In this document: one piece after another, positions 1,436-28,655 of the stretch
Layout: the number at the start of each line of letters is the position of its first letter
How positions within the stretch are numbered: the stretch's first letter is position 1
DNA from: Bacillus sp. PK3_68
GTDB lineage: Bacteria > Bacillota > Bacilli > Bacillales > Domibacillaceae
NCBI RefSeq assembly: GCF_003600835.1
Contig: NZ_NQYC01000001.1
Span: 1,878,001-1,942,000, forward strand
DNA: 64,000 bases
Direction: 5' to 3'
Position numbers and translations under genes: made by a program
The notes under the pieces: generated by a model
What the model was told of the DNA's origin: nothing
Seen by the model: only the letters and a program-made list of their open reading frames with translations
Databases searched by the model: none

Positions 1436-1645
1436 TTACATAACTCCTTCTCGAATAGGTATCTATAATGTTAAGTCCAGATTATTTTCCACTCGCTTGA
1501 TTCACTCCAATTTTTTCGCTTGCCCCCTTCAAACCAGCGGCTTTTTAACAGGCTACCAATTTTCTCATTAGCTTATAACAATATACTTCTATGTACAATG
1601 CTTCACTTTTTCATTCGTTACTCTTCTTTCTCTTTTATGCAAATA

Positions 1646-1689
1646 AAACAGCTTGCTTGGAGAATAGCCACTCTTCAAGCAAGCTGTTT
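1646..1689 (-). terminator. Terminator of the SulP-Usp operon
   Basis: AAACAGCTTGCTTG pairs with CAAGCAAGCTGTTT (14 bp arms) and is followed on the minus strand by a U-rich TTTATTTG. It starts 12 nt after the stop of the universal stress protein gene at 1701. Confidence 0.85.
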
Positions 1690-1700
1690 AAACAGGGAAA

Positions 1701-2120
1701 CTATTTGACGATTAATGCCGGGCAATTTACTCTTTTCATGACTTTATGACTGACGCTGCCTAACACCATCTCTTGGAATGAATTAAGCCCGCGGCTGCCA
1801 ATAATGACGAGGTCAAAGTTCTCTTTATTTGCATATTCAACAATAGCGGGTCCTGGCTCTCCATGCAAAATTTTCACTTCATACGCTATATGCTGTGATT
1901 GTAATTCTTTTTCCATCTGATGAAGCTTTTCCCGCCGGGAGAGCTCCAGCTCTTCTTTTCCTTGGGAATGAAGGATAGCGCTTTTTGATTTTGAATAGTC
2001 AGCCACATAAACAACCTCAATTTTGCAGTCTTTTACGAGGAAAGCAATTTCAGCAGCTTCCCGCGCTGCTCTCAGGGAATTCTCTGACCCATCTGCAGCT
2101 AGTAAAATCTTTTTATACAT
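1701..2120 (-). CDS. Universal stress protein UspA family
   Basis: This is a 139-residue single-domain Usp protein. It begins with ILLAADGSENS and has the ATP-binding signature of the family near the C terminus: GSRG, nine residues, then GS. It is the second gene of a two-gene operon, 21 nt after the SulP transporter stop, and is followed by a strong terminator. Pairing of SulP anion transporters with Usp proteins, either as neighbours or as fusions, is a known theme, so it may modulate the transporter in response to ATP or stress. This last point is inference. Confidence 0.9.
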   Translation of the reverse strand: MYKKILLAADGSENSLRAAREAAEIAFLVKDCKIEVVYVADYSKSKSAILHSQGKEELELSRREKLHQMEKELQSQHIAYEVKILHGEPGPAIVEYANKENFDLVIIGSRGLNSFQEMVLGSVSHKVMKRVNCPALIVK

Positions 2121-2141
2121 ATTGTCACCTCATTCGCTAAA

Positions 2142-3599
2142 TTAATGAGGCATTAATTTAGCGTTTTTGTGTACAGCTAGCTTGTCAACGATTCTTTGAC
2201 TGGACGAGTTCAATCCTTTAATCGCCACTTTATTATTTCTCTCATTGTATTTCATCATGACCTTATCAATTGCTCCAACGGCGGAGTCATCCCAAATATG
2301 AGCACCTGAAAAATCAATGACAATCTTTTTATTCTCCACCGTAAAATCAAAAATATCTACAAAGTCATCCGCAGAGGCAAAGAATAATTGGCCTTCCACT
2401 GTAAACAATGTATGCTCTTTTTCTACTTGTTTATTGATTTTTATTTTAGAGATTTTAGCTGTAAAAAAGATAGCGCTTAAGATCACTCCAGCAATTACTC
2501 CCTTAGATAAGTCATGAGTTGCAACAACAATCGCCACAGTGACGAGCATCACAACTGCATCTGTTTTCGGTGCTTTCCTTAAGTAAGAGAACGATGACCA
2601 ATCAAACGTTCCGACAGATACCATAATCATAATTCCCACAAGGACCGGCATCGGAATCTGTACAACAAGATCCCCTAATACTATAATTAGAAACATTAAA
2701 AATAATCCTGCCACTAAAGTAGATAACCGGCCGCGGCCGCCTGATTTGACATTAATAACAGACTGGCCAATCATCGCACAGCCAGCCATTCCGCCAAAGA
2801 AGCCTGTTACAATATTGGCTATTCCCTGGCCTCTCGCTTCCCGATTTTTGCTGCTTTCGGTTCCTGTCATATCATCAACAATCGAAGCAGTTAACAATGA
2901 TTCGAGCAGGCCAACGATGGCAAGAGCAATAGAATAAGGAAAGATAATAGCGAATGTTTCAAATGTGAAAGGCACATCTGGAATGAGAAACTGCGGCAGT
3001 TGTTGACTAATGTTTCCCAAGTCTCCTACTGTTCGCACATCTGCTTGTGTATAAATAGCTGCCGCCGTCAAAACGAGGATCGCGATTAATGGTGCCGGAA
3101 TGATTTTGACAAATCGAGGAACAACATACACAATAACTAAAGTAATAGCAACAAAAATATACGTTAGAGTTGAAATGCCAATGAAATTCGGCACTTGAGC
3201 CATAAAAATTAAAATAGCCAGCGCATTAACAAATCCGATCATCACGGCTCGTGGAATAAACTTCATGAGCCTCGCGATTTTAAATACACCAAATAATATC
3301 TGAATGATACCTGTCAAAATCGTGGCGGCCAGCAAATAATTAAGCCCGTATTCTCTCACGAGCGGCCCCATTAATAGCGCCATGGCCCCAGTTGCTGCTG
3401 AAATCATAGCCGGACGGCCGCCAGCAAATGAGATAACAACAGCCATCGTAAAGGAAGCATATAATCCTATCATCGGATCCACTCCAGCGATAATGGAGAA
3501 AGCAATCGCCTCTGGAATAAGCGCTAATGCCACAACGATACCGGCAAGAACATCTGCTCTTATATTAGAAAACCAATCTTTTTTTATTTTTTCTATCAT
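2142..3599 (-). CDS. SulP family inorganic anion transporter with STAS domain
   Basis: This is a 485-residue protein with a hydrophobic transport core (residues about 1-390) and a C-terminal STAS domain (about 400-485). The N-terminal segment [20 protein letters not shown] is typical of the SulP/SLC26 family. Members move sulfate, bicarbonate or other anions, usually with sodium or protons; the substrate cannot be read from the sequence. The start has a GAGGGG site. It is the first gene of an operon with a universal stress protein. At 485 residues it is shorter than most sulfate transporters and nearer the bicarbonate-type members. Confidence 0.9.
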
Positions 3600-3829
3600 C
3601 TTGTTTTACCCCTCATTTATAGTAGGATGTTTTGGCTTTTCACTCTCATGAAAGCCGGGCCGACAGGAACAAAAAACAGTCTATCATCTTTCTTCCCAAA
3701 AAGGAACCCTTTTGGTACTTTTTTTGAACACCAACCTGGTTATAGAGGAAGTAAAAATGCAGGCAAAAGTTACTTTACATACTCTCAGGTAAACAGCCTG
3801 AAACTTTTACACTAGTTAGGGGAGTCGTT

Positions 3830-4372
3830 ATGTTAATCGGATATATGAGGCCATATTATGAAGATCAAAATTGCGACAGCCAAGCACAGCTTTTAGCAGA
3901 CTGGTCATGTGAAAAAATCATTAAAGAAGAACATTCATCTGCCAAAAAGAGAAAGGCCCTTGAGCAGATGATTAAGGAACTTCATCCCGGAGATAAAATT
4001 ATCGTGGCAAAACTTTTTGCATTAGCTGACTCCACTCGCCATTTAGTTGAGCTCTTGGAGACATTGGAGATGAAGGGAGCATTTATTCAATCACTAAAAG
4101 AGGAAATTGATACTAGCCACGAAAGCGGCTACCGGTTCAGTGATATTGTTAAGCACCTTGTTGAGTTTCAAAGTGATGTGATAAGCGAAAAGACTAAAAG
4201 CGGTGTCCATGAAGCGAGGCAAAAAGGGATTGCAACCGGGAGACCGAGAAAGCCGGATGAAAATGTCAAGAAGGCTATCCGAATGTATCAAAGCAAAAAA
4301 TATAGCCTAAGTGATATAAAGGAAGAAACAGGGATTAGCAAATCCACATTATATCGATACTTGGAAAGCTAA
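3830..4372 (+). CDS. Serine recombinase homologue lacking catalytic residues, with C-terminal HTH
   Basis: This 180-residue protein has the fold order of a small resolvase/invertase: an N-terminal catalytic-like domain (about 1-130), then a helix-turn-helix (about 140-178, ending SKSTLYRYLES). In active enzymes the start reads like GYARVST with the nucleophilic serine; here it reads GYMRPYYEDQ, so tyrosine 9 replaces the serine. The later DRLGR active-site motif is replaced by FALAD (63-67), which removes both arginines. Arginines 7 and 41 remain. It should therefore bind DNA without cutting it. No inverted repeats, partner genes or mobile element flank it. A chromosomal regulator or structural role is more likely than recombination, though this is inference. 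Confidence 0.8.
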   Translation: MLIGYMRPYYEDQNCDSQAQLLADWSCEKIIKEEHSSAKKRKALEQMIKELHPGDKIIVAKLFALADSTRHLVELLETLEMKGAFIQSLKEEIDTSHESGYRFSDIVKHLVEFQSDVISEKTKSGVHEARQKGIATGRPRKPDENVKKAIRMYQSKKYSLSDIKEETGISKSTLYRYLES

Positions 4373-4390
4373 CGGCTTTCCTATCCTCAA

Positions 4391-4426
4391 AAGGGCGGCC
4401 CAAACAATAAGACGGCCGCTCTTTTC
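4391..4426. terminator. Bidirectional terminator between recombinase homologue and lysR
   Basis: GCGGCC (4395-4400) pairs with GGCCGC (4414-4419). An A-run precedes the stem and a T-run follows it, so it can serve both convergent genes. Confidence 0.75.
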
Positions 4427-4440
4427 CCCTATTCGAATGG

Positions 4441-5346
4441 TTATATCTCTACCTTTGGGATAGCATTGGCTAAATCCTCTCGTAGCAACTGGCTCAAGAT
4501 TTCAACGACCTTCGGCTGGAATGGGTCCGTTGTTGTCACTAAGGAAAATTTTCTTTTTACCGGCGCTTCTTTTACTTTTAAAATGACAAGTGAACCATCC
4601 ATTGCTTCTTTTCTGATTGCCCATTGTGACAACAATGAGATGCCCAAACCGGCTTCAACGGATTCTTTTATAATTTGTGTGCTGCCAAACTCCATTAATT
4701 GTTCAGGCGGTTGTTCAAATAGCTGAAACATTTTTTCTGTTGCTTCCCGTGTACCTGATCCCTTTTCTCGAACAATCCATGTCTCCTTCTCTAACTCGGC
4801 CAGCCTAATGGACTTTCTGCGAGCGAGTTTATGTTGAGCAGCGGCCACCACATACATTTTGTCTTCAGCGAATGGTTCAAAATTCAGCCTTTCATGCTTG
4901 AATTCTCCTTCTACAATCCCAACATCTAATTGATGCCTGGCGACTAAATGTTCAATTTCCTTTGTATTGCCAATCTTAATAGCTGGCTTAATGAGCGGAT
5001 AATACTTACTCAAATAAGCAATAATATGAGGCAGCACATATTCACCAAATGAATAACTGGCCCCTATCGATAACTCCCCGCTTGCCTTGTTCGTTAAATC
5101 GTCTACTAAACACTTCATTTTAGTATATAACCCTGTGATTTCCTTCGCGTGATGGTAAACGATCTCCCCTGCTTTATTTAAGCGGACATATTTATTTGTG
5201 CGATCTAACAGCCGCGATCCAACTGCACGCTCAAGCGCTTGGATGCACTGGCTGATCGCTGGCTGCGTCATATGCAATTCCTCTGCTGCCCGAGAAAAAT
5301 TCTTTTTTTCTGCCACTGTAATAAAAACAAGCAAAAGTTGATCCAT
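4441..5346 (-). CDS. LysR-type transcriptional regulator (YeiE/CysL-like context)
   Basis: This 301-residue protein has the canonical LysR layout: a winged helix-turn-helix at residues 1-60 (MTQPAISQCIQALERAVGS) and a periplasmic-binding-like effector domain from about 90 to 295. It is transcribed divergently from a YeiH family membrane protein, the classical arrangement of a LysR regulator and its target. In enterobacteria the regulator beside yeiH is YeiE, reported to sense sulfite; assignment to the same signal here is inference from context. The start is well supported by an AGGAG site upstream. Confidence 0.85.
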   Translation of the reverse strand: MDQLLLVFITVAEKKNFSRAAEELHMTQPAISQCIQALERAVGSRLLDRTNKYVRLNKAGEIVYHHAKEITGLYTKMKCLVDDLTNKASGELSIGASYSFGEYVLPHIIAYLSKYYPLIKPAIKIGNTKEIEHLVARHQLDVGIVEGEFKHERLNFEPFAEDKMYVVAAAQHKLARRKSIRLAELEKETWIVREKGSGTREATEKMFQLFEQPPEQLMEFGSTQIIKESVEAGLGISLLSQWAIRKEAMDGSLVILKVKEAPVKRKFSLVTTTDPFQPKVVEILSQLLREDLANAIPKVEI

Positions 5347-5381
5347 ACATATGTTTCTCCTTTCTCAGTTTATTATGCATT

Positions 5382-5425
5382 TTGCTTATTATCACTATCA
5401 TAATGATTTATTTTTCTTATAGCAA
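5382..5425. promoter_or_regulatory. Candidate LysR operator in the divergent lysR-yeiH region
   Basis: An imperfect inverted repeat (TTGCTTAT at 5382-5389 and CTTATAGCAA at 5416-5425) encloses a perfect short palindrome, ATCATAATGAT (5397-5407). It lies centrally in the 127-bp gap between the divergent starts, where LysR proteins usually bind. Assignment is by position and symmetry only. Confidence 0.35.
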
Positions 5426-5473
5426 ATCATCCTTTAAGATAAAATTACAATCTATTTTTGTGGAGGGATTGAA

Positions 5474-6517
5474 ATGGCTATGCAGAATGTTCAACTCAAA
5501 AAAAAGCTTGTCCAGCCAAAAGGCAAGACAGCTTTTCTTCTTCCATGGATCGGCGGGATCTCCTTTACGTTTCTGATTGCTTTGCTGGGATACTTATTAG
5601 CTCAGGTGCCTGGGTTTGATCATGTCGGCCAGTTAGCCTGCGCTATCATAATTGCTGTTGCGTATCGGCAATTACTCGGATATCCAGAAGTCATTCGTTC
5701 CGGTATTGCTTTCTCCTCTAAAAGACTGCTAAGACTGGCAATTATTTTATATGGATTGAAACTAAATATTAGTATGGTTCTGCATGAGGGTCTTGGGCTG
5801 CTCGTACGGGATGCGGGAGTCATCATTTTTGCTATCTTCTTAACGTTAGGAATCGCTAAATTGCTTAAAGCTGATCAAATGATTTCTCTCCTTCTCGGTG
5901 TCGGTACGGGTGTTTGCGGAGCAGCTGCTATTGCAGCGGTGGCTCCTATCGTCAAATCAGACGATGACGATACGGCCATTAGTGTCGGAATCATTGCATT
6001 GGTCGGCACAATATTTGCTATTGCCTATACCATCTTACGGCCGTTTCTTCCTTTATCAGCGGTTGACTATGGCATCTGGTCAGGCATCAGCCTGCATGAA
6101 ATTGCCCATGTAGCCTTAGCAGGAGCACCGGCCGGCCAAGAAGGGTTAGCTATGGCCTTGCTCGCCAAATTGGGGCGTGTCTTTCTACTCGTTCCGTTAT
6201 GCTTTATTGTTATGTATTTGATGAAGCGCAAATCAGCGGAGAATCACTCCGAAGCAAAAGTGGAATTCCCGTGGTCTTTAATTGGATTTCTTGTGATGAG
6301 CCTTTTTGGGAGCTATATTCTCGGCCACTCTATTCACGTTTCAGACAAGACAATGAACGGAGTAGCTAATATGACAACTTGGCTTCTGACAGCAGCTATG
6401 GTGGGTCTCGGGTTAAATGTGAATCTGCGGGACTTACGTACAAAAGCGTTCAGGCCTTTAATCGCTATGGTCCTTACCTCTATTTGCTTATCCATCCTTG
6501 CTTACTTTATCATTTAG
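5474..6517 (+). CDS. YeiH family putative sulfate/sulfite exporter
   Basis: This is a 347-residue polytopic membrane protein of the YeiH/UPF0324 family, with about ten hydrophobic segments. Characteristic stretches include RLAIILYGLKLNIS, LLGVGTGVCGAAAIAAVAPI and GISLHEIAHVALAGAP. The family is annotated as putative sulfate exporters, largely from gene context; direct transport data are limited. The ATG start has a GGAGG site 7 nt upstream. It is the divergent partner of the LysR regulator and is the last gene before a 375-bp gap. Confidence 0.85.
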   Translation: MAMQNVQLKKKLVQPKGKTAFLLPWIGGISFTFLIALLGYLLAQVPGFDHVGQLACAIIIAVAYRQLLGYPEVIRSGIAFSSKRLLRLAIILYGLKLNISMVLHEGLGLLVRDAGVIIFAIFLTLGIAKLLKADQMISLLLGVGTGVCGAAAIAAVAPIVKSDDDDTAISVGIIALVGTIFAIAYTILRPFLPLSAVDYGIWSGISLHEIAHVALAGAPAGQEGLAMALLAKLGRVFLLVPLCFIVMYLMKRKSAENHSEAKVEFPWSLIGFLVMSLFGSYILGHSIHVSDKTMNGVANMTTWLLTAAMVGLGLNVNLRDLRTKAFRPLIAMVLTSICLSILAYFII

Positions 6518-6892
6518 TGAAGCCGCTCATGTTCGTATATTCGTCATCTGTATCTTTTTTCATTCATCACATGATGCAGTTTATTCTGCTTCTTTAGCTA
6601 ACAGCTTATTCTCACTCAGAAACTTCCCTGTACGAAAAACTGACTCGCCCAGGGCAATTTCTATACTAACCCGCAGATGTTCTTCCGCTAACCCCGTCAC
6701 TAAAAAGGCTTTTATTCATATTTCTTAAAATGGATCTCTTATGCTTGCTGACTGATTGAACAATTTCATTCAAAATGCTCTGAAATGCTATATATTTTCT
6801 ATTTGTTTGGAAATTATTCGCAAATCTTGTCTATTTTCTACTGATTCTCTTCCATCGATTAGGTACAATAAAGAAAAGGAGGAAGAATAACG
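6518..6892. other. Gene-poor interval after yeiH
   Basis: No convincing gene was found here. On the minus strand 6581-6700 has an open frame of about 40 codons with a coding-like composition (VTGLAEEHLRVSIEIALGES and onward), but no ribosome binding site and an in-frame stop just upstream, so it may be a gene remnant. A TACAAT -10 element at 6864-6869 precedes the next gene. Confidence 0.4.
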
Positions 6893-7339
6893 ATGAATTA
6901 TAAAAATATTTTAATTGCAGTAGACGGTTCGGATGAAGCAGAACAAGGGCTTCGAAAAGCGATAGAAATTGCCAAGCGTAACGAGTCCTCCCTTCATATT
7001 GTACATATTGTTGATAATGGCTATTTCTCTTCAGTGGAAGCACTGGCCCATGCTTCTATTCCTGATTATAATGAAAAACAAGGGCAGGAACTTCTCGCTA
7101 GGTGCAAGCAAGCAGCAGAAGCAGCAGGCGCTCCGAAAGTTTATACAGTAATGGAAGTCGGCTCTCCAAAGTCATTGATTCCAAATCAGATTGCCGATCA
7201 GGTGGAAGCGGATTTGATTATTTGTGGAGCAACCGGCATTCACGGAGTAGAACGTCTTTTCCTCGGAAGTGTTTCTGAGCGTATTACCCGCACAGCTAAG
7301 TGTGACGTTCTTATCATTCGCAGTAACGACGTACATTAA
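6893..7339 (+). CDS. Universal stress protein UspA family
   Basis: This 148-residue Usp protein begins with MNYKNILIAVDGSDEAEQG and has the C-terminal nucleotide-binding signature GATG, nine residues, GS. It has an AAGGAGGAAG ribosome binding site, is transcribed alone, and ends at a bidirectional terminator shared with the convergent germination operon. It is only distantly similar to the Usp protein at 1.7 kb, so it is a separate paralogue and not a recent duplicate. Confidence 0.9.
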   Translation: MNYKNILIAVDGSDEAEQGLRKAIEIAKRNESSLHIVHIVDNGYFSSVEALAHASIPDYNEKQGQELLARCKQAAEAAGAPKVYTVMEVGSPKSLIPNQIADQVEADLIICGATGIHGVERLFLGSVSERITRTAKCDVLIIRSNDVH

Positions 7340-7348
7340 CACTAAATG

Positions 7349-7387
7349 AAAAATCCAGCCATACATTTTCCTGGCTGGATTTTTATT
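7349..7387. terminator. Bidirectional terminator between usp and the ger operon
   Basis: AAATCCAGCC pairs with GGCTGGATTT, with A-run and T-run flanks. It overlaps the last codons of the GerC gene on the minus strand. Confidence 0.85.
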
Positions 7388-8492
7388 TAATAACCCCGGT
7401 GCTTTTTATCGTCACTTTAGCCTCTACATCGAATTTTAGCCGCGGATAAATCCGTTGCCATTCTGCTTCAAGATCTCGGTTATGAAGCCTTGTAGCCTTA
7501 TAACGAAGACCAAATCCTAAAGGATCCACCTCATTTTCTTGCAAGAATTCCAGGAGATGAAGTGATCGCCTCTTCACTGCCTCGCTCGCGTATTTACTGT
7601 AAAGGCTTAGCTTTTCAGGCTGTACGGGATGTTGTGATTCTTCTATAATTCCATCAATATCCACAGTCATTTTTAAAACAGGTGCTTGATTGGCGGGTGT
7701 CAGTATTTTATACTTTGCCTGTACTTTGCCAACTGCAATCGTAATATGCATTTCCTTCTTTTTCACAACAATGTCTGCCCTTTCCTCCCTGCCCGATATA
7801 AGGTTGTAGTATTTCGTTTTTTCTGGGGTTAACTTTACCTTTTCCCTGCCCTCCTTGAAAACAATGGTCTCGTTCGTTCGATATTCTTGCCCCTTGTCTG
7901 TTGCTCGAATAATCGGCAAAATCGGATCAAGACCAGTCTCAAATAGCCGGCGGGCAAAGTCGTACACGTAGGTGGTTACAATATAGACGCTTTCTGTCCC
8001 TTCATCAGAGAAGATGTTGAACAAGGCGTTGGAGCCCGGTACGTCGGTAGTCGGATTTGTTTTTAAAACTTTTTCCGCTGAAGGGTCGCCGACCGCTACC
8101 CAGGCAATTCCCTGAAAATCTCTTCTTCTTAAGAAAATATCAAATGTTTGTCTGGCGTCACGTTCAAGGATGTTTTTTCCTAAGAGAATTACTTTTGCAT
8201 GCGAAAAGTCTAATTCTTTATCGGTATGTGTTTTTAACATTCGAACCCCTTCTGCCAGAGTAGCGGACTCGATAGACAAATAATCATACGTTGGTTTTGG
8301 AGCTTGCTTGAATGCTCCTGTCGGCACTACTAACTTTAAGGTAATACGATAGGGTTTCTTTTTGTCTTTTGTCCCATCTACACCAACCGCAACAACAAAC
8401 CCCCTCTTATCAATGTCTTTAAATCCACACCCTGATAAGATTGCCAGACAGGTAAGCATAGAAATAACAAGAAAAAGTGTCTTTCTGCTCAT
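7383..8492 (-). CDS. Ger(x)C family spore germination lipoprotein
   Basis: This is the C subunit of a GerA-type nutrient germination receptor: a lipoprotein of about 369 residues held in the outer face of the inner spore membrane. The signal peptide ends in the lipobox LSGC, placing the lipidated cysteine at residue 22. The start at 8492 is chosen because its ATG overlaps the stop of the B subunit gene (ATGA) and has GGAGGGCGAAGGC in front; an upstream in-frame start at 8516 has no such signal. It is the last gene of the operon. The body shows the usual opening DIDKRGFVVAVGVD of the family. Confidence 0.92.
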   Translation of the reverse strand: MSRKTLFLVISMLTCLAILSGCGFKDIDKRGFVVAVGVDGTKDKKKPYRITLKLVVPTGAFKQAPKPTYDYLSIESATLAEGVRMLKTHTDKELDFSHAKVILLGKNILERDARQTFDIFLRRRDFQGIAWVAVGDPSAEKVLKTNPTTDVPGSNALFNIFSDEGTESVYIVTTYVYDFARRLFETGLDPILPIIRATDKGQEYRTNETIVFKEGREKVKLTPEKTKYYNLISGREERADIVVKKKEMHITIAVGKVQAKYKILTPANQAPVLKMTVDIDGIIEESQHPVQPEKLSLYSKYASEAVKRRSLHLLEFLQENEVDPLGFGLRYKATRLHNRDLEAEWQRIYPRLKFDVEAKVTIKSTGVIK

Positions 8493-13553: not shown

Positions 13554-15833
13554 TTAAATCGTCAAATCAAATTCTTTTATTTTCCTATACAGGGTGCTGC
13601 GGGCGATTCCAAGCCGTTCAGATGCTTCCGTTACTGTTTTTGTTTCAAGCAAGGCTTGTTCAATAAGCTTCTTCTCATAATTTTTGATAGATTTTGGTCT
13701 ATGCTCTTTCCGATGGTAATATCCCATTAATACATTCGGCAAATGTATCGTTTCGATTTGCTGATTCTCCTTGCCAGCAAGCAAGAACGCTCGTTCTAAT
13801 ACATTCTTCAACTCTCGTATGTTTCCCGGCCAATGATATTGAATGAATACTTGCAAAGCCTCTTTACTTACTTGGCTCGGGCCCTGCCCATATAATACGG
13901 TAAACTCCTGCAAGAGTTGCTGACAAAGATGCTCGATATCTTCTGAACGCTCTCTTAGCGGCGGGATCATAACAGATAAAACGTTTAATCGGTAAAAAAG
14001 ATCAGAGCGAAAAGAACCATTGTATGCTATTTCCTCCGCAAGATTCCGATGGGTCGCAGCAATAATTCTCACATCCACAGCCCTTTCCTTCGTCTCTCCC
14101 AAACGCACAATTTTCTTTGTTTCTAGCGCCCTCAGTAAAACCACTTGCAATTCTAACGGCATGTCACCGATTTCATCTAAAAACAGTGTGCCGCCGTGAG
14201 CAGCTTCGAACTTACCAACCGCTCCACCTTTTTTCGCGCCGGTAAACGCTCCATCAGCAAAGCCAAACAATTCACTAGCAACCAAATCCTTAGGCAGCAG
14301 CCCTGTATTTATAGGGATGAAAGGGCCATGATTACGATCGCTTTGCTCATGGATCATTTGAGCGATCACTTCTTTTCCTGTGCCCGTCTCTCCGAGAATT
14401 AACACGTTGGCAACAGATTGGGATGCCAGCCTGGCCACTTCTAATTCTTGTCGGTAATTTTCACTCCATGTCTGAACACGGCCAAATGAAAATGGTGAAT
14501 CTATAGAAACTTGTTTTGTCTTACGCTTTAATAAATATAAATGTTGGTCATTGGTTTCATAGCTGTTGACTTGGAAACACTGCCGTAGATGTTGAAGGGC
14601 ACGCTTAGTAAGAGTTTGTCCTTCGCGAAATTCCGTTAGTTCGATTGCTTTCTTGCTCATATATAAGATTTTCCCTCGCTGTGATAAAACCAACAAAGCC
14701 TCTTCACTAATTCTCCCCCACGCTTCAAGGACAATTTCATTTACCCGATCAGACTCCATAGTTTTAAGCTTAAAAGGTTTGGGTGGAATGTTTTCTTCTG
14801 AGTCCCAAACGATATCAAATTGACCGTTTGATAGCGCTTTGGCAATTTTCACCGGACGTGCTAAATGCCGGTGATCTGCATCTACTACGATTTTGCCGCA
14901 TGCTGTGTCGAATGTTTGGCCGCTTAAGTCGTATAGAATGCGGCGGTGATCTTCACTCTTTACTTTGCAGATACTGTCAATCACTAATCTAGTGCCTAAG
15001 TAAGTATTAAACATTACAGAAGAAATAACTTGCTTCCCTCCAGCAAATCGGTGAAATTTATTAACGAATTCTGTGTTTAATGCATTGGAGAGAGATTGGA
15101 AATAGCTTGCCGAACCGTAATGCCCGGCTCCGTATTCACTCCCCATCGCTGCAATTTCTGTTTCCTTTGTAATTGGACTGAAAATAGGGATTTCTTCGGG
15201 ATTGAATCCCATCCGTTTATAATCCTGATAAAAAGAAATGATACTTTTTCCGACAAGTGTAGAAAAAATGGCATCAGGCTTCTTTAAGTGAATATCTTCT
15301 AAAATATCATAAAATTTTTGCTGCCCGAAAGGAACATACCGCTCTCCAACCACCATTCCCTCCCGCTCATACAAGTATGTTTGAACTTGCTCATTTGTTT
15401 CACGGGGATAAATATAATCTGTGCCGATACAATATACTCGATTTCCATACTGGTTTGTTAAATAATCTAAAAGTGTGTGAACTTGCTGATTAGGTACTTC
15501 TCCGGTATAAAAGACATGCGGATGGCATTCACGTCCTTCATATAAAGTAGGATAGACAAGTAGACAATCGTATGTTTCTAGAATAGGCAAAATCGCTTTT
15601 CGACAGGCTGATGTATAACACCCAATAAAGATTTTTACTCCCTCTTTAGCAAGTTGCTCCGCTTCCTGAGCACTCTTTAACGGATCTGAACAAATATCAC
15701 GCACAACAGTCTCTATAGTGTGCTCCCCGTTATCATACTCTTGGATCGCCAGCTTTGCTGCTTCACATTGCCATTTCTCTGTGATGGAAGTCGTTCCTGT
15801 TAATGAAAACAACAATCCAACTTTACTATACAC
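13554..15833 (-). CDS. Sigma-54 dependent activator with AmiC-like ABC-type substrate-binding sensor domain
   Basis: This 759-residue one-component regulator has three parts. Residues 1 to about 350 form a Peripla_BP_6/AmiC-like domain (start KVGLLFSLTGTTSITE) without a signal peptide, so it acts in the cytoplasm. A short linker (about 360-440) may be PAS-like. The AAA+ sigma-54 interaction domain (about 460-690) has Walker A GETGTGKE, the sigma-54 contact motif GAFTGA, Walker B GTLFLDEIGDMP and PLRERSEDI. A Fis-type helix-turn-helix (EASERLGIARSTLYRKIKEF) ends the protein. It starts with GTG after GGGGATGAC, is divergent from an amidase operon preceded by a -24/-12 promoter, and most likely activates it when the sensor binds an amide or similar ligand. 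AmiC in Pseudomonas is a separate protein acting on an antiterminator; fusion to a sigma-54 activator is a different logic. Confidence 0.9.
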   Translation of the reverse strand: MYSKVGLLFSLTGTTSITEKWQCEAAKLAIQEYDNGEHTIETVVRDICSDPLKSAQEAEQLAKEGVKIFIGCYTSACRKAILPILETYDCLLVYPTLYEGRECHPHVFYTGEVPNQQVHTLLDYLTNQYGNRVYCIGTDYIYPRETNEQVQTYLYEREGMVVGERYVPFGQQKFYDILEDIHLKKPDAIFSTLVGKSIISFYQDYKRMGFNPEEIPIFSPITKETEIAAMGSEYGAGHYGSASYFQSLSNALNTEFVNKFHRFAGGKQVISSVMFNTYLGTRLVIDSICKVKSEDHRRILYDLSGQTFDTACGKIVVDADHRHLARPVKIAKALSNGQFDIVWDSEENIPPKPFKLKTMESDRVNEIVLEAWGRISEEALLVLSQRGKILYMSKKAIELTEFREGQTLTKRALQHLRQCFQVNSYETNDQHLYLLKRKTKQVSIDSPFSFGRVQTWSENYRQELEVARLASQSVANVLILGETGTGKEVIAQMIHEQSDRNHGPFIPINTGLLPKDLVASELFGFADGAFTGAKKGGAVGKFEAAHGGTLFLDEIGDMPLELQVVLLRALETKKIVRLGETKERAVDVRIIAATHRNLAEEIAYNGSFRSDLFYRLNVLSVMIPPLRERSEDIEHLCQQLLQEFTVLYGQGPSQVSKEALQVFIQYHWPGNIRELKNVLERAFLLAGKENQQIETIHLPNVLMGYYHRKEHRPKSIKNYEKKLIEQALLETKTVTEASERLGIARSTLYRKIKEFDLTI

Positions 15834-15862
15834 GTCATCCCCATCCCCTTGTCCTATTTTAG

Positions 15863-15892
15863 GAAAGCTGTCTCAAAATCGGACAAGCTTTC
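15863..15892. promoter_or_regulatory. Candidate upstream activating sequence for the amidase operon
   Basis: GAAAGCTGTC (15863-15872) faces GACAAGCTTTC (15882-15892), an almost perfect dyad with a 9-bp centre. It is centred about 145 bp before the predicted start of the sigma-54 promoter, a usual enhancer distance, and just upstream of the activator gene. Confidence 0.55.
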
Positions 15893-15995
15893 TTTCTCTT
15901 TATCATACAATTAATTTCTGAATATTTGGAATAAAATTGTCTTATTTTACAACATTCTTATAAGCACTTTCTCCATCTCTTACAGATTTTGGTAC

Positions 15996-16011
15996 TGGCA
16001 TAAAAATTGCA
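15996..16011 (+). promoter_or_regulatory. Sigma-54 (SigL) -24/-12 promoter of the amidase operon
   Basis: TGGCATAAAAATTGCA matches the consensus TGGCAC-N5-TTGCW, with GG and GC exactly 10 nt apart. Transcription would start near 16022, about 117 nt before the first gene. The divergent gene encodes a GAFTGA-containing activator, which strengthens the assignment. Confidence 0.85.
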
Positions 16012-16138
16012 GTTAAAAGAACCAGAAAGGAGGATTTTACTCCACATCATAAAGACGGAACTCGTGGATGGGGTTTGCATACTTATCAATTGATGAATGA
16101 ATCATTCTTTGTACTTAAGGAAAAGGAGAGGGTTTGCA

Positions 16139-16321
16139 ATGAAATTATCCGTACGTGAAAGATTAGAAAACCAAGGGGTGCGCGTAACCGAGGAGCATCT
16201 TCCCCTTCTTGAATCACGTTGGCAGGCCATCGAGCAAATGAAAGCTGAAACGGACAGTGCGTCTTTAGACGACTATGATATTTCTCTTCGCAATATTCCC
16301 GGAGGTGATCATATTGAGTAA
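16139..16321 (+). CDS. Small AtzG/GatC-like partner protein of the amidase
   Basis: This 60-residue acidic protein starts at the ATG preceded by AGGAGAGGG; an in-frame ATG 42 nt upstream lacks a site. It has a helical N-terminal half (SVRERLENQGVRVTEEHL) and ends SLRNIPGGDHIE. Its stop overlaps the start region of the amidase, so the two are translationally coupled. Small proteins encoded directly before amidase-signature enzymes include GatC and AtzG, which stabilise their partner. I infer the same role from size, position and coupling; the sequence similarity is too short to be conclusive. Confidence 0.65.
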   Translation: MKLSVRERLENQGVRVTEEHLPLLESRWQAIEQMKAETDSASLDDYDISLRNIPGGDHIE

Positions 16322-17735
16322 AGATCTTATTACAAAATCAGTGGAAGAATTGGCACCATTGATTGAAAATAGAAAGATTTCTTCTCTTGAATTAACAAAA
16401 GCTGTTCTGGATCATGCTGAATCCCAAAATAAAACAATTAATGCATACATCAGCTTTACTCGCGAGAAAGCGGAAGAAACTGCCCGCTATATGGATAAAG
16501 AAATAGCTAACGGAAATTATCGCGGCATGTACCATGGCATTCCGATGGCCGTTAAAGATAATCTATATGTCCAAAACGAAAGAACGACTATGGCTTCAAA
16601 AATTCATAAAGACTTTATTCCCAATTTCGACGCCACCGTTATTGGCAAGATGAGAGAAGCCGGGATTGTTTTTACCGGAAAATTAAATATGCATGAATAC
16701 GCATGGGGGATCACAAATAATAATCCACATTATGGCGCCTGTCGTAATCCGTGGGATTTAGAAAAAATCCCGGGAGGTTCCAGCGGCGGTTCCGGTGCTG
16801 CTGTTGCAGCGGATATGACTACTGCTACCCTTGGGACAGACACAGCCGGTTCCATTCGTATTCCCTCTTCCGCTTGTGGAATTGTAGGATTAAAGCCCAC
16901 ACACGGCAGAGTAAGCAAATATGGATGCTTCCCGCTCTCCTGGTCTCTTGACCACATTGGCCCCATGACAAAAACAGTTAAAGATGCGGCAGGGTTGCTA
17001 GAGATTATTTCTGGATGTGATCCAAACGACCCTACCTCTATTCACGCACCTGTCAGCCGATATACAGAAATGTTAACCGGCGATGTAAAAGGTCTTGTCA
17101 TTGGTGTAAATGAGGAATTCTTCTTTAAAAATGTCGATTCCAAGATAGAAAAGCTTGTACGAGCTGGGATTCAATCCCTAGTCGATCAAGGGGCAAAAGT
17201 AGAAGAAGTGAGCATTTCTTCATTAAGACACGCAGAATATGCAGAAATGATCACCATTTTATCGGAAGCAGCCACGATCCATCATCGAAACCTTTTAGAA
17301 CGACCGGAGGACTTTGGGGCAGATATTCGCTTACTATTTGAGCTGGGAGAACTGCCTTCAGCCGTGGATTACTTGCGAGCTCAGCAGCTACGACGTCAAA
17401 TTAAATTGGAATTTCAACAAGCATTTGAAAAAGTAGACGTATTCATTACCCCAACATTGCCTATTATTTCGCCAAATATTGGGGAAGATTTTGCAGACTT
17501 AAATGGTGAAAAAGTAGATTTGATTGACCATATCATCCGCTTTACGGGACCCGGAAACTTAACCGGCCTTCCCGCCCTTACTGTTCCTTGCGGCCTTGTG
17601 GCTGGCATGCCCGCCGGACTGCAGATTATTGGGCCAGCATTAAAAGAAGAAACCATATTAAACGTTGGCTTTGCTTTCGAAAAGACAAATCCTATGCAAG
17701 GAAGAAAGCCTGGATTAGCCAGCTCCCTTCAATAA
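16314..17735 (+). CDS. Amidase signature family amidohydrolase
   Basis: This 473-residue enzyme is related to GatA/AtzE. From the chosen start the catalytic triad is Lys81 (AVKDN), cis-Ser156 (GGSSGGSG) and nucleophile Ser180 (TDTAGSIRIPSS), all intact. The start is a TTG at 16314: it sits 6 nt after GGAGGTGAT and overlaps the stop of the preceding small gene, whereas no ribosome binding site supports upstream in-frame codons. It would hydrolyse an amide, carbamate or urea-like substrate in the cytoplasm. No GatB gene is nearby, so it is not the tRNA amidotransferase. It is expected to be induced through the divergent sigma-54 activator. Confidence 0.88.
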   Translation: MSKDLITKSVEELAPLIENRKISSLELTKAVLDHAESQNKTINAYISFTREKAEETARYMDKEIANGNYRGMYHGIPMAVKDNLYVQNERTTMASKIHKDFIPNFDATVIGKMREAGIVFTGKLNMHEYAWGITNNNPHYGACRNPWDLEKIPGGSSGGSGAAVAADMTTATLGTDTAGSIRIPSSACGIVGLKPTHGRVSKYGCFPLSWSLDHIGPMTKTVKDAAGLLEIISGCDPNDPTSIHAPVSRYTEMLTGDVKGLVIGVNEEFFFKNVDSKIEKLVRAGIQSLVDQGAKVEEVSISSLRHAEYAEMITILSEAATIHHRNLLERPEDFGADIRLLFELGELPSAVDYLRAQQLRRQIKLEFQQAFEKVDVFITPTLPIISPNIGEDFADLNGEKVDLIDHIIRFTGPGNLTGLPALTVPCGLVAGMPAGLQIIGPALKEETILNVGFAFEKTNPMQGRKPGLASSLQ

Positions 17736-18463: not shown

Positions 18464-19777
18464 ATGAAATTTTTCAGAATAAAACCAAAAAGAACGGCCG
18501 AGAGCGAAACAGCTTCAACTTTCTCAGCAGTCGGACGTCTATCTGTGCGCCCTGAAGGCAGCCTGATGAATCAACTAGACATGATCAACTTATCTATACA
18601 CGATTTAACGGTCGTAAAATCACTTCAGCCGCTTGTGGAGGAACACCTCGATGATATTGTGACAGCATTTTACGATGCTATTGGCAAACAATCCAACCTG
18701 CTGAATATCATAAAAGAACACAGCAGTGTTGACCGATTGAAGAAAACACTAAGACAGCACATTCAAGAGCTATTTAATGGTGAAATAGATGAGGAGTTTA
18801 TCCAGAAGCGACTTAAGATTGCTTATGTACACGTGCGTATCGGTCTGAAAACAAAATGGTACATGTCCGCTTTTCAGGAGCTATTCAACTCGCTTATCGC
18901 ACTCATTTCTGAGACGGATAAAACGGTCGACGAAAAAATTGAGGCCATTACCTCCGTATCTAAGCTGTTAAATCTTGAGCAACAGCTTGTTCTGGAAGCC
19001 TATGAGAAAGAAGAGGAACGGCTCCGCCTCATAGTCCAGCAAAAGAGAGAAACGATGATTGCTAGCGCTCATTCTATTTCCCAGGAGCTTGCAGCTATTT
19101 CGCAAGAAACAAGTGCATCACTGCGGGAACTTAGCATGAAGTCAGATGCTATCTTACAGCTTTCAAAAGATGGCATGGCCCTCGCTGATGAATCTGCTAA
19201 TCATTCTGTTCGAGGACAGAGAATGCTGAAAGACCAAGGCGAGAAGCTAACAGATATCCAGGCAGCAGTCTCCGATATCCAGACTTTTTCTGCTGAATTG
19301 AATCATATTGCATCCAGTATTACAGAAGTTATTACCATCGTCGGCAACATTGCCGGACAGACCAACTTGCTAGCACTGAATGCTTCTATTGAAGCGGCAC
19401 GTGCCGGTGAATACGGCAAAGGCTTTGCCGTAGTAGCAGAAGAAATTCGCAAACTATCTGACCAAACAAAAACATCCACTACAAATGTATCCGATCATAT
19501 TATGAAGACGAATAGCTTGATTGGCCAGATGAGCCAGTCCGTTGACAAAGTGAATGAGTTAGTCGTAAAAGGCATGGATAGTATGGGAAAAACCGATGAA
19601 GATTTCAACGAGCTATTGGAACTGATTGCAAATACAAAAGAACAAAACCATCGAATTGAAGGCGAAATGGCTCAACTTAACCGTATTGTTGATGAAATTG
19701 AACATGCATCCCAGGAAGTCGCGAATTCCGCTGTCGCTTTAAGCGACTCCACGGAGGACTTGCATTACGACAATTAA
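18464..19777 (+). CDS. hemAT: HemAT heme-based aerotaxis transducer
   Basis: This 437-residue soluble chemoreceptor has an N-terminal protoglobin sensor (about 35-190) and a C-terminal methyl-accepting signalling domain (about 230-430). The proximal heme ligand is His123 in AYVHVRIGL, at the same position as in the B. subtilis protein. The signalling tip reads [20 protein letters not shown], the receptor hallmark. It lacks membrane helices. It senses oxygen and signals through CheA. The gene is monocistronic behind a SigD-type promoter. Confidence 0.95.
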
Positions 19778-22767: not shown

Positions 22768-22776
22768 GTGATTAAG

Positions 22777-24408
22777 ATGAAAAAACAAGATATGATTGAA
22801 CTATTAACAGGGGTCCGATCCTCAAAACAAAACTATTATACAGAGTTAAAGACAACAGTGGAAGAATTAAAGAAACGAAATAGCCAGCTTGAAATCATGA
22901 ATGAAGTGATGAGAAGCTTCAATATCAATATGTCCGTTCAAGAAATGCTGGAGAATACGCTGAAAAAACTCCAAAGCATCTACCCTATCAAACGGGTGAG
23001 CCTCGCCCTCTTTGACGGTTATGAACTTCGTCTGTCCTATATCTTTCCCGAAGACTCATTCTATCTAAAAAAAGAGACTTCCTTTCCTAAAGAGCACTCT
23101 TTATATAACGACGTATTTGTAACTGGGCGAGAACGCATTTATCAACAGGACGATGACTCCGACTTTTTTGAAAAAGAAGCTTTTCAACATCTCCATCTTC
23201 ACTCTGTTTTTTTATTTCCATTAACAAGCCGGGGGAAAATTATTGGCGTACTCTCCCTGGGCTCTCTTGTTCCCTTTTCATATGATGAGAAGGATCAAGC
23301 TTTCTTTCTGCATTTAGCTGGACAAATTGCTGTATGCGTGGAAAACGCCCGGCTGTATGAGGAAGTCTTTGCAAGCAAACAGCAATGGGAAGAAACCTTT
23401 CGTGCAGTCTCTGACGCCATTTTAGTTATCTCACCAAATGGAACCGTTTTATCCAAAAATGATGCAGCTTCTTCCTGGCCGCTGGATTCCCATGGAGACA
23501 TTCGGCCATTCATAAAAGAAGCCGCCCGATCCTCTCGAAATCCATTTGAAGAAACCATTAAGTTCAAAAAGCCGCATTATGCTGAACTGCGGCTTCAAAA
23601 TAAGTTTTATGATTGTTCCTGCTACCCTCTTTTTGTTGAAGACTCTACTCTCCATGCTGTTATTCTCTATATTAAAGATGTTACAGAAAAACGGCAAATG
23701 GAAGCCCAGCTCCTTCATTCCGGTCAGCTGGCAGCGATCGGTGAAATGGCAGCAGGAGTTGCTCATGAGCTTAATAATCCCTTAACAGCCATTATCGGAA
23801 ATACACAGCTGCTTCTTCGCATGAATGATATAAATGAAAAGATAAGGCCACTGCTTGATGATATCGATCTTTGCGGGAAGCGATGTCGGACAATCATCCG
23901 CAGCTTGCTTGCTTTTTCCCGGCAGGAGGAGTTTTCCTTTAAGCCTTGCTCTTTAAACCAGTCAGTAGAAGAAGCGCTTAGTTTAACACGCCGACAAATT
24001 GAGAAACAGAACATTCAATTGGACATCAACCTTTCTTCTTCTCTGCCTCTCATCAACGGAAATTTACAACAGTTAAGTCAAGTAGCCGTGAATTTACTCA
24101 TTAATGCTAAAGATGCGCTTCAAGATGTAAAAGGCAGAAAAAGAAAGATTATCGTTGAAACAAAGAGCGATCATCACTCTGCTTTTCTGACCGTTACGGA
24201 TAATGGTACAGGAATTGCTCCAGAAATAATAAACGATATTTTCCACCCGTTTTTTACTACGAAAGCGGCAAACAGCGGAACCGGCCTTGGGCTGCCTGTT
24301 AGCTTTGGCATTGCCAAGTCACACGGGGGACGCCTCTTAGTCGAAAGTTCAAATTCATATCAAACTACATTCACATTAGCTATCCCTCTTTTAAGTGAAA
24401 GGCTGTGA
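22777..24408 (+). CDS. Sensor histidine kinase with GAF and PAS domains (NtrB/AtoS type)
   Basis: This cytoplasmic kinase of about 543 residues has no membrane helix. A short coiled coil (about 10-40) is followed by a GAF domain (about 45-205), a PAS domain (about 210-310), then HisKA with GEMAAGVAHELNNPLTA and the HATPase N box NLLINAKDALQ and G boxes DNGTGI and GTGLGLPVS. The ATG at 22777 has AGGTGAT in front; a GTG 9 nt upstream abuts the alcohol dehydrogenase stop. With the NtrC-type regulator 4 nt downstream it forms a two-component system. The GAF domain is the likely ligand sensor. Confidence 0.92.
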   Translation: MKKQDMIELLTGVRSSKQNYYTELKTTVEELKKRNSQLEIMNEVMRSFNINMSVQEMLENTLKKLQSIYPIKRVSLALFDGYELRLSYIFPEDSFYLKKETSFPKEHSLYNDVFVTGRERIYQQDDDSDFFEKEAFQHLHLHSVFLFPLTSRGKIIGVLSLGSLVPFSYDEKDQAFFLHLAGQIAVCVENARLYEEVFASKQQWEETFRAVSDAILVISPNGTVLSKNDAASSWPLDSHGDIRPFIKEAARSSRNPFEETIKFKKPHYAELRLQNKFYDCSCYPLFVEDSTLHAVILYIKDVTEKRQMEAQLLHSGQLAAIGEMAAGVAHELNNPLTAIIGNTQLLLRMNDINEKIRPLLDDIDLCGKRCRTIIRSLLAFSRQEEFSFKPCSLNQSVEEALSLTRRQIEKQNIQLDINLSSSLPLINGNLQQLSQVAVNLLINAKDALQDVKGRKRKIIVETKSDHHSAFLTVTDNGTGIAPEIINDIFHPFFTTKAANSGTGLGLPVSFGIAKSHGGRLLVESSNSYQTTFTLAIPLLSERL

Positions 24409-24412
24409 ATAG

Positions 24413-25834
24413 ATGAAACATATTTTAATCGTTGAAGATGAATGGGAAGTTGCCCGGTTTTTAGCAAGATTGTTTGAATTAAAAGGATACAGAACAACAC
24501 ATGTGGAAAACGGCGATTGCTTTGATCAACTTGATGATTATTCTGTTTTTCAGCTTGCTTTTATCGATGTTCGTCTTCCCGATCGCAATGGCCTTGAAAT
24601 TCTACAATCATTAAAATTGAAAGCTCCTCAATGTGCCTGTGTTATTATGACTGGCTACGGTACAGTCAAAACAGCTGTAGACGCGATTAAAAACGGAGCA
24701 GCGGACTTTATCGAAAAACCCTTTGAGGACATTACAGCGATTGAGCAGCTTGCCGAGCGGCTGACCGACAGTTCTCCCAAAAATAACGAAGAAGCAGATT
24801 ATGCGGTTCTCGCCCGGCAGCTCGGCTATTTTCTGGGCACAAATTCTAAGATGCATCAATTATATGAGTTCGCTTATAAAATCGCTTCGAAAGATATTAC
24901 CATTTTAATAGAAGGCGAGACAGGCACTGGAAAAGAGGTGCTTGCAAATTATCTGCATGCGGCAAGCGAACGCAAGGAAAACCCATTTATCGGTATTAAC
25001 TGTGGGGCTATCTCTGAATCGCTGCTTGAAAGCGAACTATTCGGCCATGTAAAGGGAGCCTTCACCGGCGCGACCGCAGATCGGATTGGCTACTTCGAAG
25101 CTGCCTCTTCAGGGACTTTATTTCTTGATGAGATTGCAGAAGCAACCCCTGCTACTCAAGTAAAGCTATTGCGCGTTCTGGAAACGGGTGAGTTTATGAA
25201 AATCGGTGGTACGATTCCAAAGCGGACATCAGCACGCATTATTGCCGCTTCACACGTTAATTTGGAGGAAGCCGTTCGGCAAGGATCTTTTCGCGAAGAT
25301 TTATTATACCGTCTTGATGTAGTAAAGCTCATCATTCCGCCACTCAGAGAACGGCGAGAAGACATTCCCCTTCTTATTCAATCGCTCATTGAACAACTAA
25401 ATGCAAAAATAGTATTTGCCAAGGAAACGATTGATCGAATGGTTGAATATGATTGGCCCGGCAATATGAGAGAGCTTTCCAACGTAATCCGGCGCACTGC
25501 CGCTTTATCAAATGATGGCATGAACATCACTCCCGATTTGTTGCCGGGAAAGGTGAACGGCCAGCATCAATCCGCGTCGGTGCCCGTACAGGTTGCACCA
25601 GCCAATTTTCTTGATGAATGGCGCCAATTTGCCAGTAAAGTCGAACACGTATATAAGAGAGAAGATCCAATGCAGCTGAACGAGCTAATTAGGCAAATGA
25701 AAAATATGGAGAAAAAAACAGCAGCAGCAATCATTCATAATGTTTTAAAAGAAACAGCCGGCAATCGTGAACAAGCGGCTGCCCGACTTGGATTATCCAA
25801 ACGACAAATCCGCTATTACCTAAATGAAAAATAA
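24413..25834 (+). CDS. NtrC-family sigma-54 dependent response regulator
   Basis: This 473-residue protein has a receiver domain (phosphoacceptor Asp52 in AFIDVRLPD), an AAA+ domain (about 140-375) with GETGTGKE, intact GAFTGA, GTLFLDEIAEA and PLRERREDI, and a Fis-type helix-turn-helix at the C terminus (EQAAARLGLSKRQIRYYL). It needs SigL-containing RNA polymerase. The only sigma-54 promoter seen near it is upstream of the convergent adhA-aldehyde dehydrogenase operon, which also carries a symmetrical enhancer, so that operon is the probable target. Confidence 0.93.
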   Translation: MKHILIVEDEWEVARFLARLFELKGYRTTHVENGDCFDQLDDYSVFQLAFIDVRLPDRNGLEILQSLKLKAPQCACVIMTGYGTVKTAVDAIKNGAADFIEKPFEDITAIEQLAERLTDSSPKNNEEADYAVLARQLGYFLGTNSKMHQLYEFAYKIASKDITILIEGETGTGKEVLANYLHAASERKENPFIGINCGAISESLLESELFGHVKGAFTGATADRIGYFEAASSGTLFLDEIAEATPATQVKLLRVLETGEFMKIGGTIPKRTSARIIAASHVNLEEAVRQGSFREDLLYRLDVVKLIIPPLRERREDIPLLIQSLIEQLNAKIVFAKETIDRMVEYDWPGNMRELSNVIRRTAALSNDGMNITPDLLPGKVNGQHQSASVPVQVAPANFLDEWRQFASKVEHVYKREDPMQLNELIRQMKNMEKKTAAAIIHNVLKETAGNREQAAARLGLSKRQIRYYLNEK

Positions 25835-27536: not shown

Positions 27537-28601
27537 TTACATCGTCAAGACAATACGCCCATTGATTTTTCCTTGGACCATCTTTTCAAACACTTCATTG
27601 ATTTGATCGAGCGGAGCGGTTTCAATTTGCGCTTTTACTTTTCCTCTTGCAGCAAAGTCTAGTGCTTCTTTCATATCCATGCGAGTACCAACAATCGATC
27701 CTTTTACTGACACGCCATTTAAAACTGTGTCAAAGATCGGAATTGGCAGTTCATCATTTGGAAGACCGACAACAACAAGCGTACCGCCGCGTTTTACAGA
27801 TTGATAAGCTTGCTCAAACGCTCTTTTTGTTACCGCTACGCTGACAGCTGCCTGAACGCCGCCTACACGGTTTTGAATCGCTTCGACTGGATTTTCTTGC
27901 ATGCCATTCACTGTTTCATCTGCGCCTAATTCTTTGGCGAGTACCAGCTTCTCATCTGCAATATCTACCGCCACTACGTTAAATCCCATTGCCTTCGCAT
28001 ACTGAAGAGCAATATGGCCCAGACCGCCAATACCATAGATCGCTACCCAGTCTCCCGGCTTAGCTCCTGATACTTTAAGTGCTTTGTATGTGGTTACTCC
28101 TGCGCACAAGATAGGGGCCGCTGCCACTGAGTCGAGCTCATCCGGTATCTTCGCCACATAATCTGCTGCAGCCAGACAGTATTCCGCGTAGCCTCCATCA
28201 ACAGAATAGCCTCCATTCTCTTGATTCGGACAAAGAGTCTCTTGCCCTTTCAAGCAATACTCGCATTCACCGCAAGCGGAATACAGCCAAGGGATCCCTA
28301 CGCGGTCTCCCACTTTTAAAGTCGTGACCCCTTCACCAACCGCTTCGACTACACCCACTCCTTCATGTCCGGGAATAAGCGGCAGCTTTGGTTTTACCGG
28401 CCAGTCACCATGAGCTGCATGCAAATCTGTATGGCACACGCCGCACGCCTCCATTTTTACGAGTGCTTCTCCAGGCCCCGGCTTAGGCTTTGATACAGTT
28501 TTCACTTCTAAATCTTGTTTAAATTCATTGACCACAGCAGCTTTCATAACACTTGTCCCTTTGTCCACCTTTTTAACTTCTTCTACGACTGTTTCTTTCA
28601 T
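27537..28601 (-). CDS. adhA: Zinc-dependent alcohol dehydrogenase AdhA type
   Basis: This 354-residue medium-chain alcohol dehydrogenase has the catalytic zinc ligands in [15 protein letters not shown] and [12 protein letters not shown], the four structural zinc cysteines in [15 protein letters not shown], and the NAD fold [14 protein letters not shown]. It has an 18-residue charged N-terminal extension before the usual MKAAVVNEF start; the upstream ATG is supported by AAAGGGGG, whereas the inner ATG has a poor site. It probably oxidises ethanol or another primary alcohol and shares an operon with the aldehyde dehydrogenase, behind a sigma-54 promoter. Confidence 0.92.
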
Positions 28602-28639: not shown

Positions 28640-28655
28640 TGCAAGGAACATGCCA
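28640..28655 (-). promoter_or_regulatory. Sigma-54 (SigL) -24/-12 promoter of the adhA operon
   Basis: On the minus strand TGGCATGTTCCTTGCA fits the -24/-12 consensus with GG and GC 10 nt apart. It lies about 40 nt before the adhA start codon. Confidence 0.88.

Follow-up and report, generated by a model that had tools for sequence, protein, structure and literature searches.

In the 64,000-nucleotide stretch of Bacillus sp. PK3_68 DNA analyzed here (the window), a single 759-residue protein encoded on the reverse strand at 13554..15833 joins an AmiC/UrtA-type ligand-binding domain to a sigma-54 activator and is divergent from an amidase operon. Judging from gene order and promoter sequence among its relatives, this fusion is very probably a one-component, ligand-gated sigma-54 activator of that operon. 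It is also probably a member of a so far unnamed sigma-54 activator family that couples an AmiC-type amide sensor to a AAA+ motor, so that sensing would control initiation rather than antitermination. As we would define this family, it has short and long forms, a short-form operator grammar and a patchy distribution, is sometimes plasmid-borne and is paired with several enzyme systems: amidase-signature (AS)-type amidase, aliphatic amidase with AmiS, nitrile hydratase, and aliphatic amidase with formamidase. A preliminary description of this DNA had proposed that a one-component sensor acts on a divergent amidase promoter of sigma-54 type; that proposal is supported by gene order (19 of the 21 complete fusions), by a promoter in each of those 19 regions, by operators in the short-form loci and by controls that lack the promoter.

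Architecture and distribution of the fusion

The fusion begins at a GTG codon and aligns with 20 other complete fusions. Its ligand-binding domain (residues 4-355; 14769..15824, on the reverse strand like all its domains) matches Pfam Peripla_BP_5 at 3.1e-112, scoring 375.7 bits against a curated cut-off of 27 and covering profile positions 2-358 of 363. The closest solved structure is 8tg1 (2.1e-68), with AmiC (1pea, 4e-53) and UrtA (7s6e, 5.8e-51) behind it; these alignments start at residue 4-5, and the N-terminus, MYSKVGLLFSLTG, shows no leader on inspection, the only means by which it was judged. A PAS-like linker (residues 356-456; 14466..14768) separates sensor from motor. The AAA+ sigma-54 interaction domain and lid (residues 457-708; 13710..14465), delimited from Pfam, alignment and motifs, consist of Sigma54_activat at residues 457-621 (1.9e-62) followed by AAA_lid_14, with both Walker A and Walker B present and GAFTGA at residues 528-533 (14235-14252). 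Last comes a Fis-type helix-turn-helix (HTH) at residues 718-755 (13569..13682; HTH_8, 1.1e-10). The single polypeptide of leaderless binding-protein sensor, AAA+ domain with GAFTGA and Fis-type HTH that was first described is thus borne out by Pfam, motifs and inspection, and the domain search suggested as a check does find a binding-protein domain. Of the original assignment of the sensor as AmiC-like Peripla_BP_6, the AmiC/UrtA-type fold stands, but Peripla_BP_5 fits better than Peripla_BP_6, which matches at 6.4e-63.

A search across genomes, also suggested in the preliminary description, recovered the 20 further complete fusions, giving 21 for comparison (12 short, 9 long); a fragment (L141) whose frame closes after 335 codons near a contig end is left out of the counts. 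That fragment, at 6018-7025 of its locus, is a truncated fusion copy in a genome (G305) that also holds an intact one; upstream of it are two TGT-N11-ACA sites with a spacing of 18 bp. The long form has a middle region of about 280 residues and the short form a PAS-like linker. Pfam was run on the window fusion and four of the nine long ones, the remaining fusions being judged by alignment; the four long proteins have the domain order of the window fusion, with HTH_8 not reached in L134. GAFTGA or GAFTGS is present in all 21 complete fusions (14 and 7, respectively). Identity in the nearest three relatives is 75, 69 and 66% over the binding domain versus 47, 45 and 35% over the linker, the least conserved of the four segments.

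Distribution was assessed with residues 1-440 as the query. In a sample of 397 genomes from the order, 55 match at E<=1e-25 and 18, including that of Bacillus sp. PK3_68, contain a frame of sufficient length for a fusion: 10 the short form (768-818 codons) and 8 the long form (947-990 codons), one of which carries two. In a sample of 398 genomes from the phylum, with at most 4 candidates scored per genome, 12 match at E<=1e-50, namely that of Bacillus sp. PK3_68 and 11 whose frames of 420-446 codons have the size of a standalone UrtA. Of 3,721 matching plasmid records, those of Parageobacillus thermoglucosidasius and Peribacillus asahii are the 2 that align over 80% or more of the protein, and in both the fusion is annotated only as a 'transporter substrate-binding protein'. 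A whole-protein scan of 84,980 species says nothing about the spread of the fusion, because the common AAA+ domain swamped the matches (none of the 80 loci retained had a best segment starting before residue 343); a whole-protein search of the phylum, with 2 candidates scored per genome, was likewise dominated by AAA+ and was therefore repeated with residues 1-440.

The divergent operon, its promoter and operator-like sites

By annotation or BLAST, 19 of the 21 complete fusions (12/12 short, 7/9 long) are divergent from an enzyme of amide or nitrile metabolism. An AS-type amidase stands beside the fusion in the window and in L123, L124 and L125, where it is 74-84% identical to that of the window. 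An aliphatic amidase takes this place in L122 and in L126-L131 (the L131 contig is only 5.2 kb), followed in L122 and L126-L130 by an AAA gene and an AmiS/UreI gene, some of these genes being short frames; the AAA and AmiS domains were checked in L126. On the Parageobacillus plasmid (L121), the fusion is divergent from nitrile hydratase and is flanked on its other side by an aliphatic amidase. At 1579-8415 of that locus the nitrile hydratase genes are in line with annotated cobalt transporter genes, which suggests a cobalt enzyme. Among long forms, L134 has an aliphatic amidase and a formamidase that both exceed their NCBIfam cut-offs, and L136 has a neighbor with an NCS1-type permease domain.

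In the window, the divergent transcript should start from a predicted -24/-12 sigma-54 promoter, TGGCATAAAAATTGCA, at 15996..16011 on the forward strand, an exact match at the position first described. The preliminary description spoke of an amidase pair; an amidase is indeed divergent from the activator, but the other member is a conserved 60-residue open reading frame (ORF; 16139..16321, forward strand), a putative amidase partner whose stop overlaps the amidase start. This ORF has counterparts of 77% identity in L123 and 53% in L125, is recognizable by eye in L124 and has no significant Pfam or PDB match. The amidase (473 residues, 16314..17735, forward strand) matches PF01425 at 1.1e-116 and only that family; CN_hydrolase, the mark of AmiE-type aliphatic amidases, does not match. 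Although its frame is already open from 16275, the sequence makes it most likely that translation begins at TTG 16314, behind GGAGGTGAT (16301-16309), rather than at ATG 16275. No AmiS/UreI partner was found in the genome. In L162 an amidase of 57% identity comes after nitrile hydratase genes, which makes nitrile-derived amides plausible substrates.

Promoters were scanned in the 19 divergent intergenic regions (12 short-form, 7 long-form; L135, L140 and L141 are not among them). Every one has a -24/-12 element of at least 14 of 16 points directed toward the enzyme, against a mean of 0.11 and a maximum of 2 in dinucleotide-preserving shuffles, and in the opposite direction none has a match above 10 points. 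As controls we used three amidase homologs without an adjacent fusion (71, 61 and 57% identical). None has a -24/-12 element of at least 11 points within 700 bp, save a match of exactly 11 at -545 in L162, and the two controls other than L161 have no operator within 500 bp.

Three operator-like sites lie between the divergent genes. Site 1 (TGTCCTATTTTAGGAAA, 15850..15866) is 17 bp before the activator's GTG start and has 3 mismatches to the family consensus; site 2 (TGTCTCAAAATCGGACA, 15869..15885) has none and is centered 120 bp before the -24 GG; site 3 (TGTCTTATTTTACAACA, 15938..15954) has 2 and is centered 51 bp before it. Sites 1 and 2 are spaced 19 bp, and equivalents of site 3 occur 51-52 bp before the -24 GG in L123, L124 and L125. 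The 30-bp dyad originally noted at 15863-15892 is present and coincides with site 2, but the conserved unit is its inner 17 bp, one of the three sites. In relatives, accordingly, the promoter and the 17-bp core are kept, but the outer arms are not, forming no dyad by eye in L123 or L125.

The short-form grammar that emerges is two 17-bp sites of TGT-N11-ACA type spaced 18-19 bp, in most regions joined by another one closer to the promoter. The 12 short-form regions contain 19 TGT-N11-ACA matches and the 7 long-form regions 8, where shuffled sequence gives 0.93 in either case (max 5); most of the long-form matches differ in their core, and some long-form loci are near-copies. The operator test covered the 200 bp in front of each of 15 short-form promoters, comprising the 12 that are divergent and three extra (the second amidase in L129, the AmiS gene in L124 and the aliphatic amidase in L121, the last weaker at 14.5 points). 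At up to 3 mismatches, the consensus TGTNTCAAAATNNGACA has 38 sites in 15/15 of these regions, including all 12 divergent ones, versus 0.95 in shuffles (max 4). Two sites spaced 17-19 bp are present in 13/15 regions (10/12 divergent; shuffles 0), rising to 14/15 (11/12 divergent; shuffles 0.04, max 2) at up to 4 mismatches. A third site is centered 48-64 bp before the -24 GG in 12/15 regions, in two of them only at 4 mismatches.

Across the whole genome, a -24/-12 element has a TGT-N11-ACA site at the proximal distance in 3 places and at the distal distance in 1, and the fusion locus is the only place with promoter, proximal and distal sites. The sole mismatch-free 17-bp site in the genome is also at this locus. 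No operator precedes the two other mismatch-free -24/-12 matches of the window, and among the relatives' loci (L122, L124, L125, L138 and L139) another five matches of 15 points are without TGT-N11-ACA within 180 bp. At 28640-28655 (reverse strand) a mismatch-free element, TGGCATGTTCCTTGCA, stands just upstream of an ORF at 27537-28601 (reverse strand), with no such operator within 200 bp. As a genome-wide finder of regulon members, a single 17-bp site is uninformative (17 places at up to 2 mismatches versus 11 for the reversed control).

We propose the following model. A small amide, perhaps derived from a nitrile, would bind the cytoplasmic AmiC-type domain, and closure of the sensor, relayed via the linker, would relieve the AAA+ ring. 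Dimers occupying the three sites could then come together as a hexamer and open the SigL-RNA polymerase complex at 15996-16011, switching on the 60-residue ORF and the amidase. Site 1, so close to the activator's start codon, may in addition let the activator limit its own expression.

Candidate ligands and alternative explanations

Several observations weigh against this model. The fusion occurs in just 1 of 4 genomes of the genus. Two long fusions from one genome (L135 and L140 of G345) have no amidase alongside, and the 700 bp in their divergent direction contain neither a promoter of at least 13 points nor TGT-N11-ACA; a recombinase gene and genes for ABC transporters of peptide or nickel type lie close by, and because L140 adjoins such transporter genes, some family members may sense something else. 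Of the controls, L161 shows TGT-N11-ACA at -611 and, within 500 bp, a single site with 3 mismatches. The control L162 sits in a nitrile hydratase operon of a genome (G284) that has its fusion elsewhere (L126), and this operon has two TGT-N11-ACA sites upstream and no promoter of at least 13 points. The third site is missing in L128, L130 and the AmiS promoter of L124, and the main promoter of L129 lacks the site pair. The operator counts are, moreover, optimistic, because part of the regions tested also served to derive the consensus and because the three extra promoters were chosen for having sites; pair spacing is less affected and is the stronger point. In the protein itself, the PAS match of the window linker (E=0.024) falls short of the cut-off, Ala replaces AmiC's Thr at the YPT position in 7/21 fusions, and the very long AmiC branch in the tree of binding domains makes nearness to AmiC over UrtA tentative.

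That tree bears directly on an alternative with the same activator and target in which the ligand is urea or another non-amide, as for the UrtA transporters that share the fold. The best NCBIfam match over the binding domain is indeed UrtA (TIGR03407), at 304.9 of 492.75 bits and so below cut-off, and the UrtA structure 7s6e matches strongly, as given above. Among 45 binding domains, however, the 22 standalone proteins labeled UrtA (21 genomic, one PDB chain; L147 and L153 left out) form one group with 100/100 support, split from the fusions; the 12 short fusions form their own group, also 100/100, the long fusions are not clearly one group, and the placement of AmiC, whose branch is 2.1 long, is unsure. 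At the position of AmiC Thr106, a residue with a role in ligand choice, the fusions have Thr (14/21) or Ala, whereas the standalone proteins have Val in 20/21 and Thr in one; the numbering was counted from the structure alignment, in which chain 1pea shows Thr and 1qnl Asn. The motifs YPT and DYIYPRE are common to AmiC and the window fusion, and DYVFPR occurs in 18/21 standalone proteins, the pattern missing the remaining three. With amidases or nitrile hydratase beside 19 of the 21 fusions as well, we regard a urea-type ligand as unlikely. On tree separation and pocket motifs, short amides appear the likelier ligand, so that of the amide- or urea-derivative sensor first proposed, the amide part is retained from motifs and neighbors and the urea part is disfavored.

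A less probable alternative still is that the binding domain is merely structural and that the PAS-like linker or nitrogen status sets activity. The linker of L121 does exceed the PAS_8 and PAS cut-offs, and weak PAS or GAF matches occur in the middle region of 2/3 long fusions scanned; set against this, the linker is the segment that diverges most among the nearest relatives, and the sensor is well conserved, ligand-facing motifs included. We give the least credence to the idea that the fusion regulates something else and another regulator drives the amidase. Other activators are at hand, since 36 places in the genome match the sigma-54 activator domain at E<=1e-50 (one partial, one with stops), and the two fusions without an adjacent amidase fit this idea. 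Against it, promoter and sites accompany the fusion in 12 short-form regions, the promoter is missing at all three fusion-less amidases, and the promoter-plus-sites arrangement is unique in the genome. Ligand-gated activation of the divergent operon by the fusion thus remains our preferred explanation.

Other window genes and comparison with known systems

Elsewhere in the window, an ORF at 18464-19777 (forward strand) has Pfam Protoglobin and MCP signaling domains and is one that we take to be a HemAT-like soluble globin-coupled transducer. An ORF at 22768-24408 (forward strand) that reads by eye like a histidine kinase precedes one at 24413-25834 (forward strand; C1:1902833) with a sigma-54 activator domain, and they perhaps form a two-component pair.

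NorR, XylR and PrpR are one-component sigma-54 activator types, and the fusion shares their order of N-terminal sensor, AAA+ and HTH. It has the GAFTGA and Walker A/B motifs and the Fis-type HTH of a sigma-54 enhancer-binding protein, its genome contains one match to a sigma-54 gene, and a predicted -24/-12 promoter with upstream sites lies beside it. The sensor sets it apart. Among the 490 sigma-54 activators that one survey covered in 57 Clostridiales, 11 kinds of sensor domain were distinguished, known types including PrpR_N and V4R, and in the part of that survey used here a full Peripla_BP_5 domain is not among the 11 (PMC6615313). The portions of two wider surveys used here (PMC12316311, PMC3162934) mention no Peripla_BP-type sensor, which their supplementary tables might list, and no description of the fusion appears in the titles and abstract openings of the best literature matches on the regulator, the fusion or ami/nitrile systems. 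Because these matches and surveys, to that extent, hold no such description, we count the fusion as a newly described combination.

The window's AS-type amidase beside a small ORF resembles AtzE and its small partner AtzG. It differs in that the amidase scores below the cut-offs of AtzE profiles (353 of 425.75 bits for TIGR02715 and 364 of 461 for another) and the small ORF matches no AtzG-like family, leaving kinship with AtzG or GatC unsupported. With UrtA, the fusion sensor shares its fold and Pfam family; it differs in its separate tree clade, its pocket motifs, its lack of a visible leader and its not being part of a transporter.

The closest functional parallel is AmiC-AmiR. In Pseudomonas aeruginosa, binding of acetamide makes AmiC release AmiR, an antitermination factor, and the amidase, AAA ATPase and AmiS/UreI genes of L122 and L126-L130 recall the amiEBCRS genes as presented in the part of that source used here (PMC5259723). 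In both systems an AmiC-type sensor would control amide hydrolysis. The Pseudomonas system, however, uses a separate antiterminator, whereas here the sensor and the sigma-54 AAA+ activator are one chain facing a -24/-12 promoter; a separate sensor with an ANTAR antiterminator partner was not seen, the fusion and six other window ORFs scanned having no ANTAR domain (neighbors of the relatives were scanned in part). If our model is correct, it predicts the regulator, operator and inducer class for amide- and nitrile-hydrolyzing operons, and the fusion could act as an amide-inducible switch in Gram-positive hosts. One kind of sensor would then have been wired to two unrelated outputs, antitermination in Pseudomonas and sigma-54 activation here, in the service of similar metabolism.

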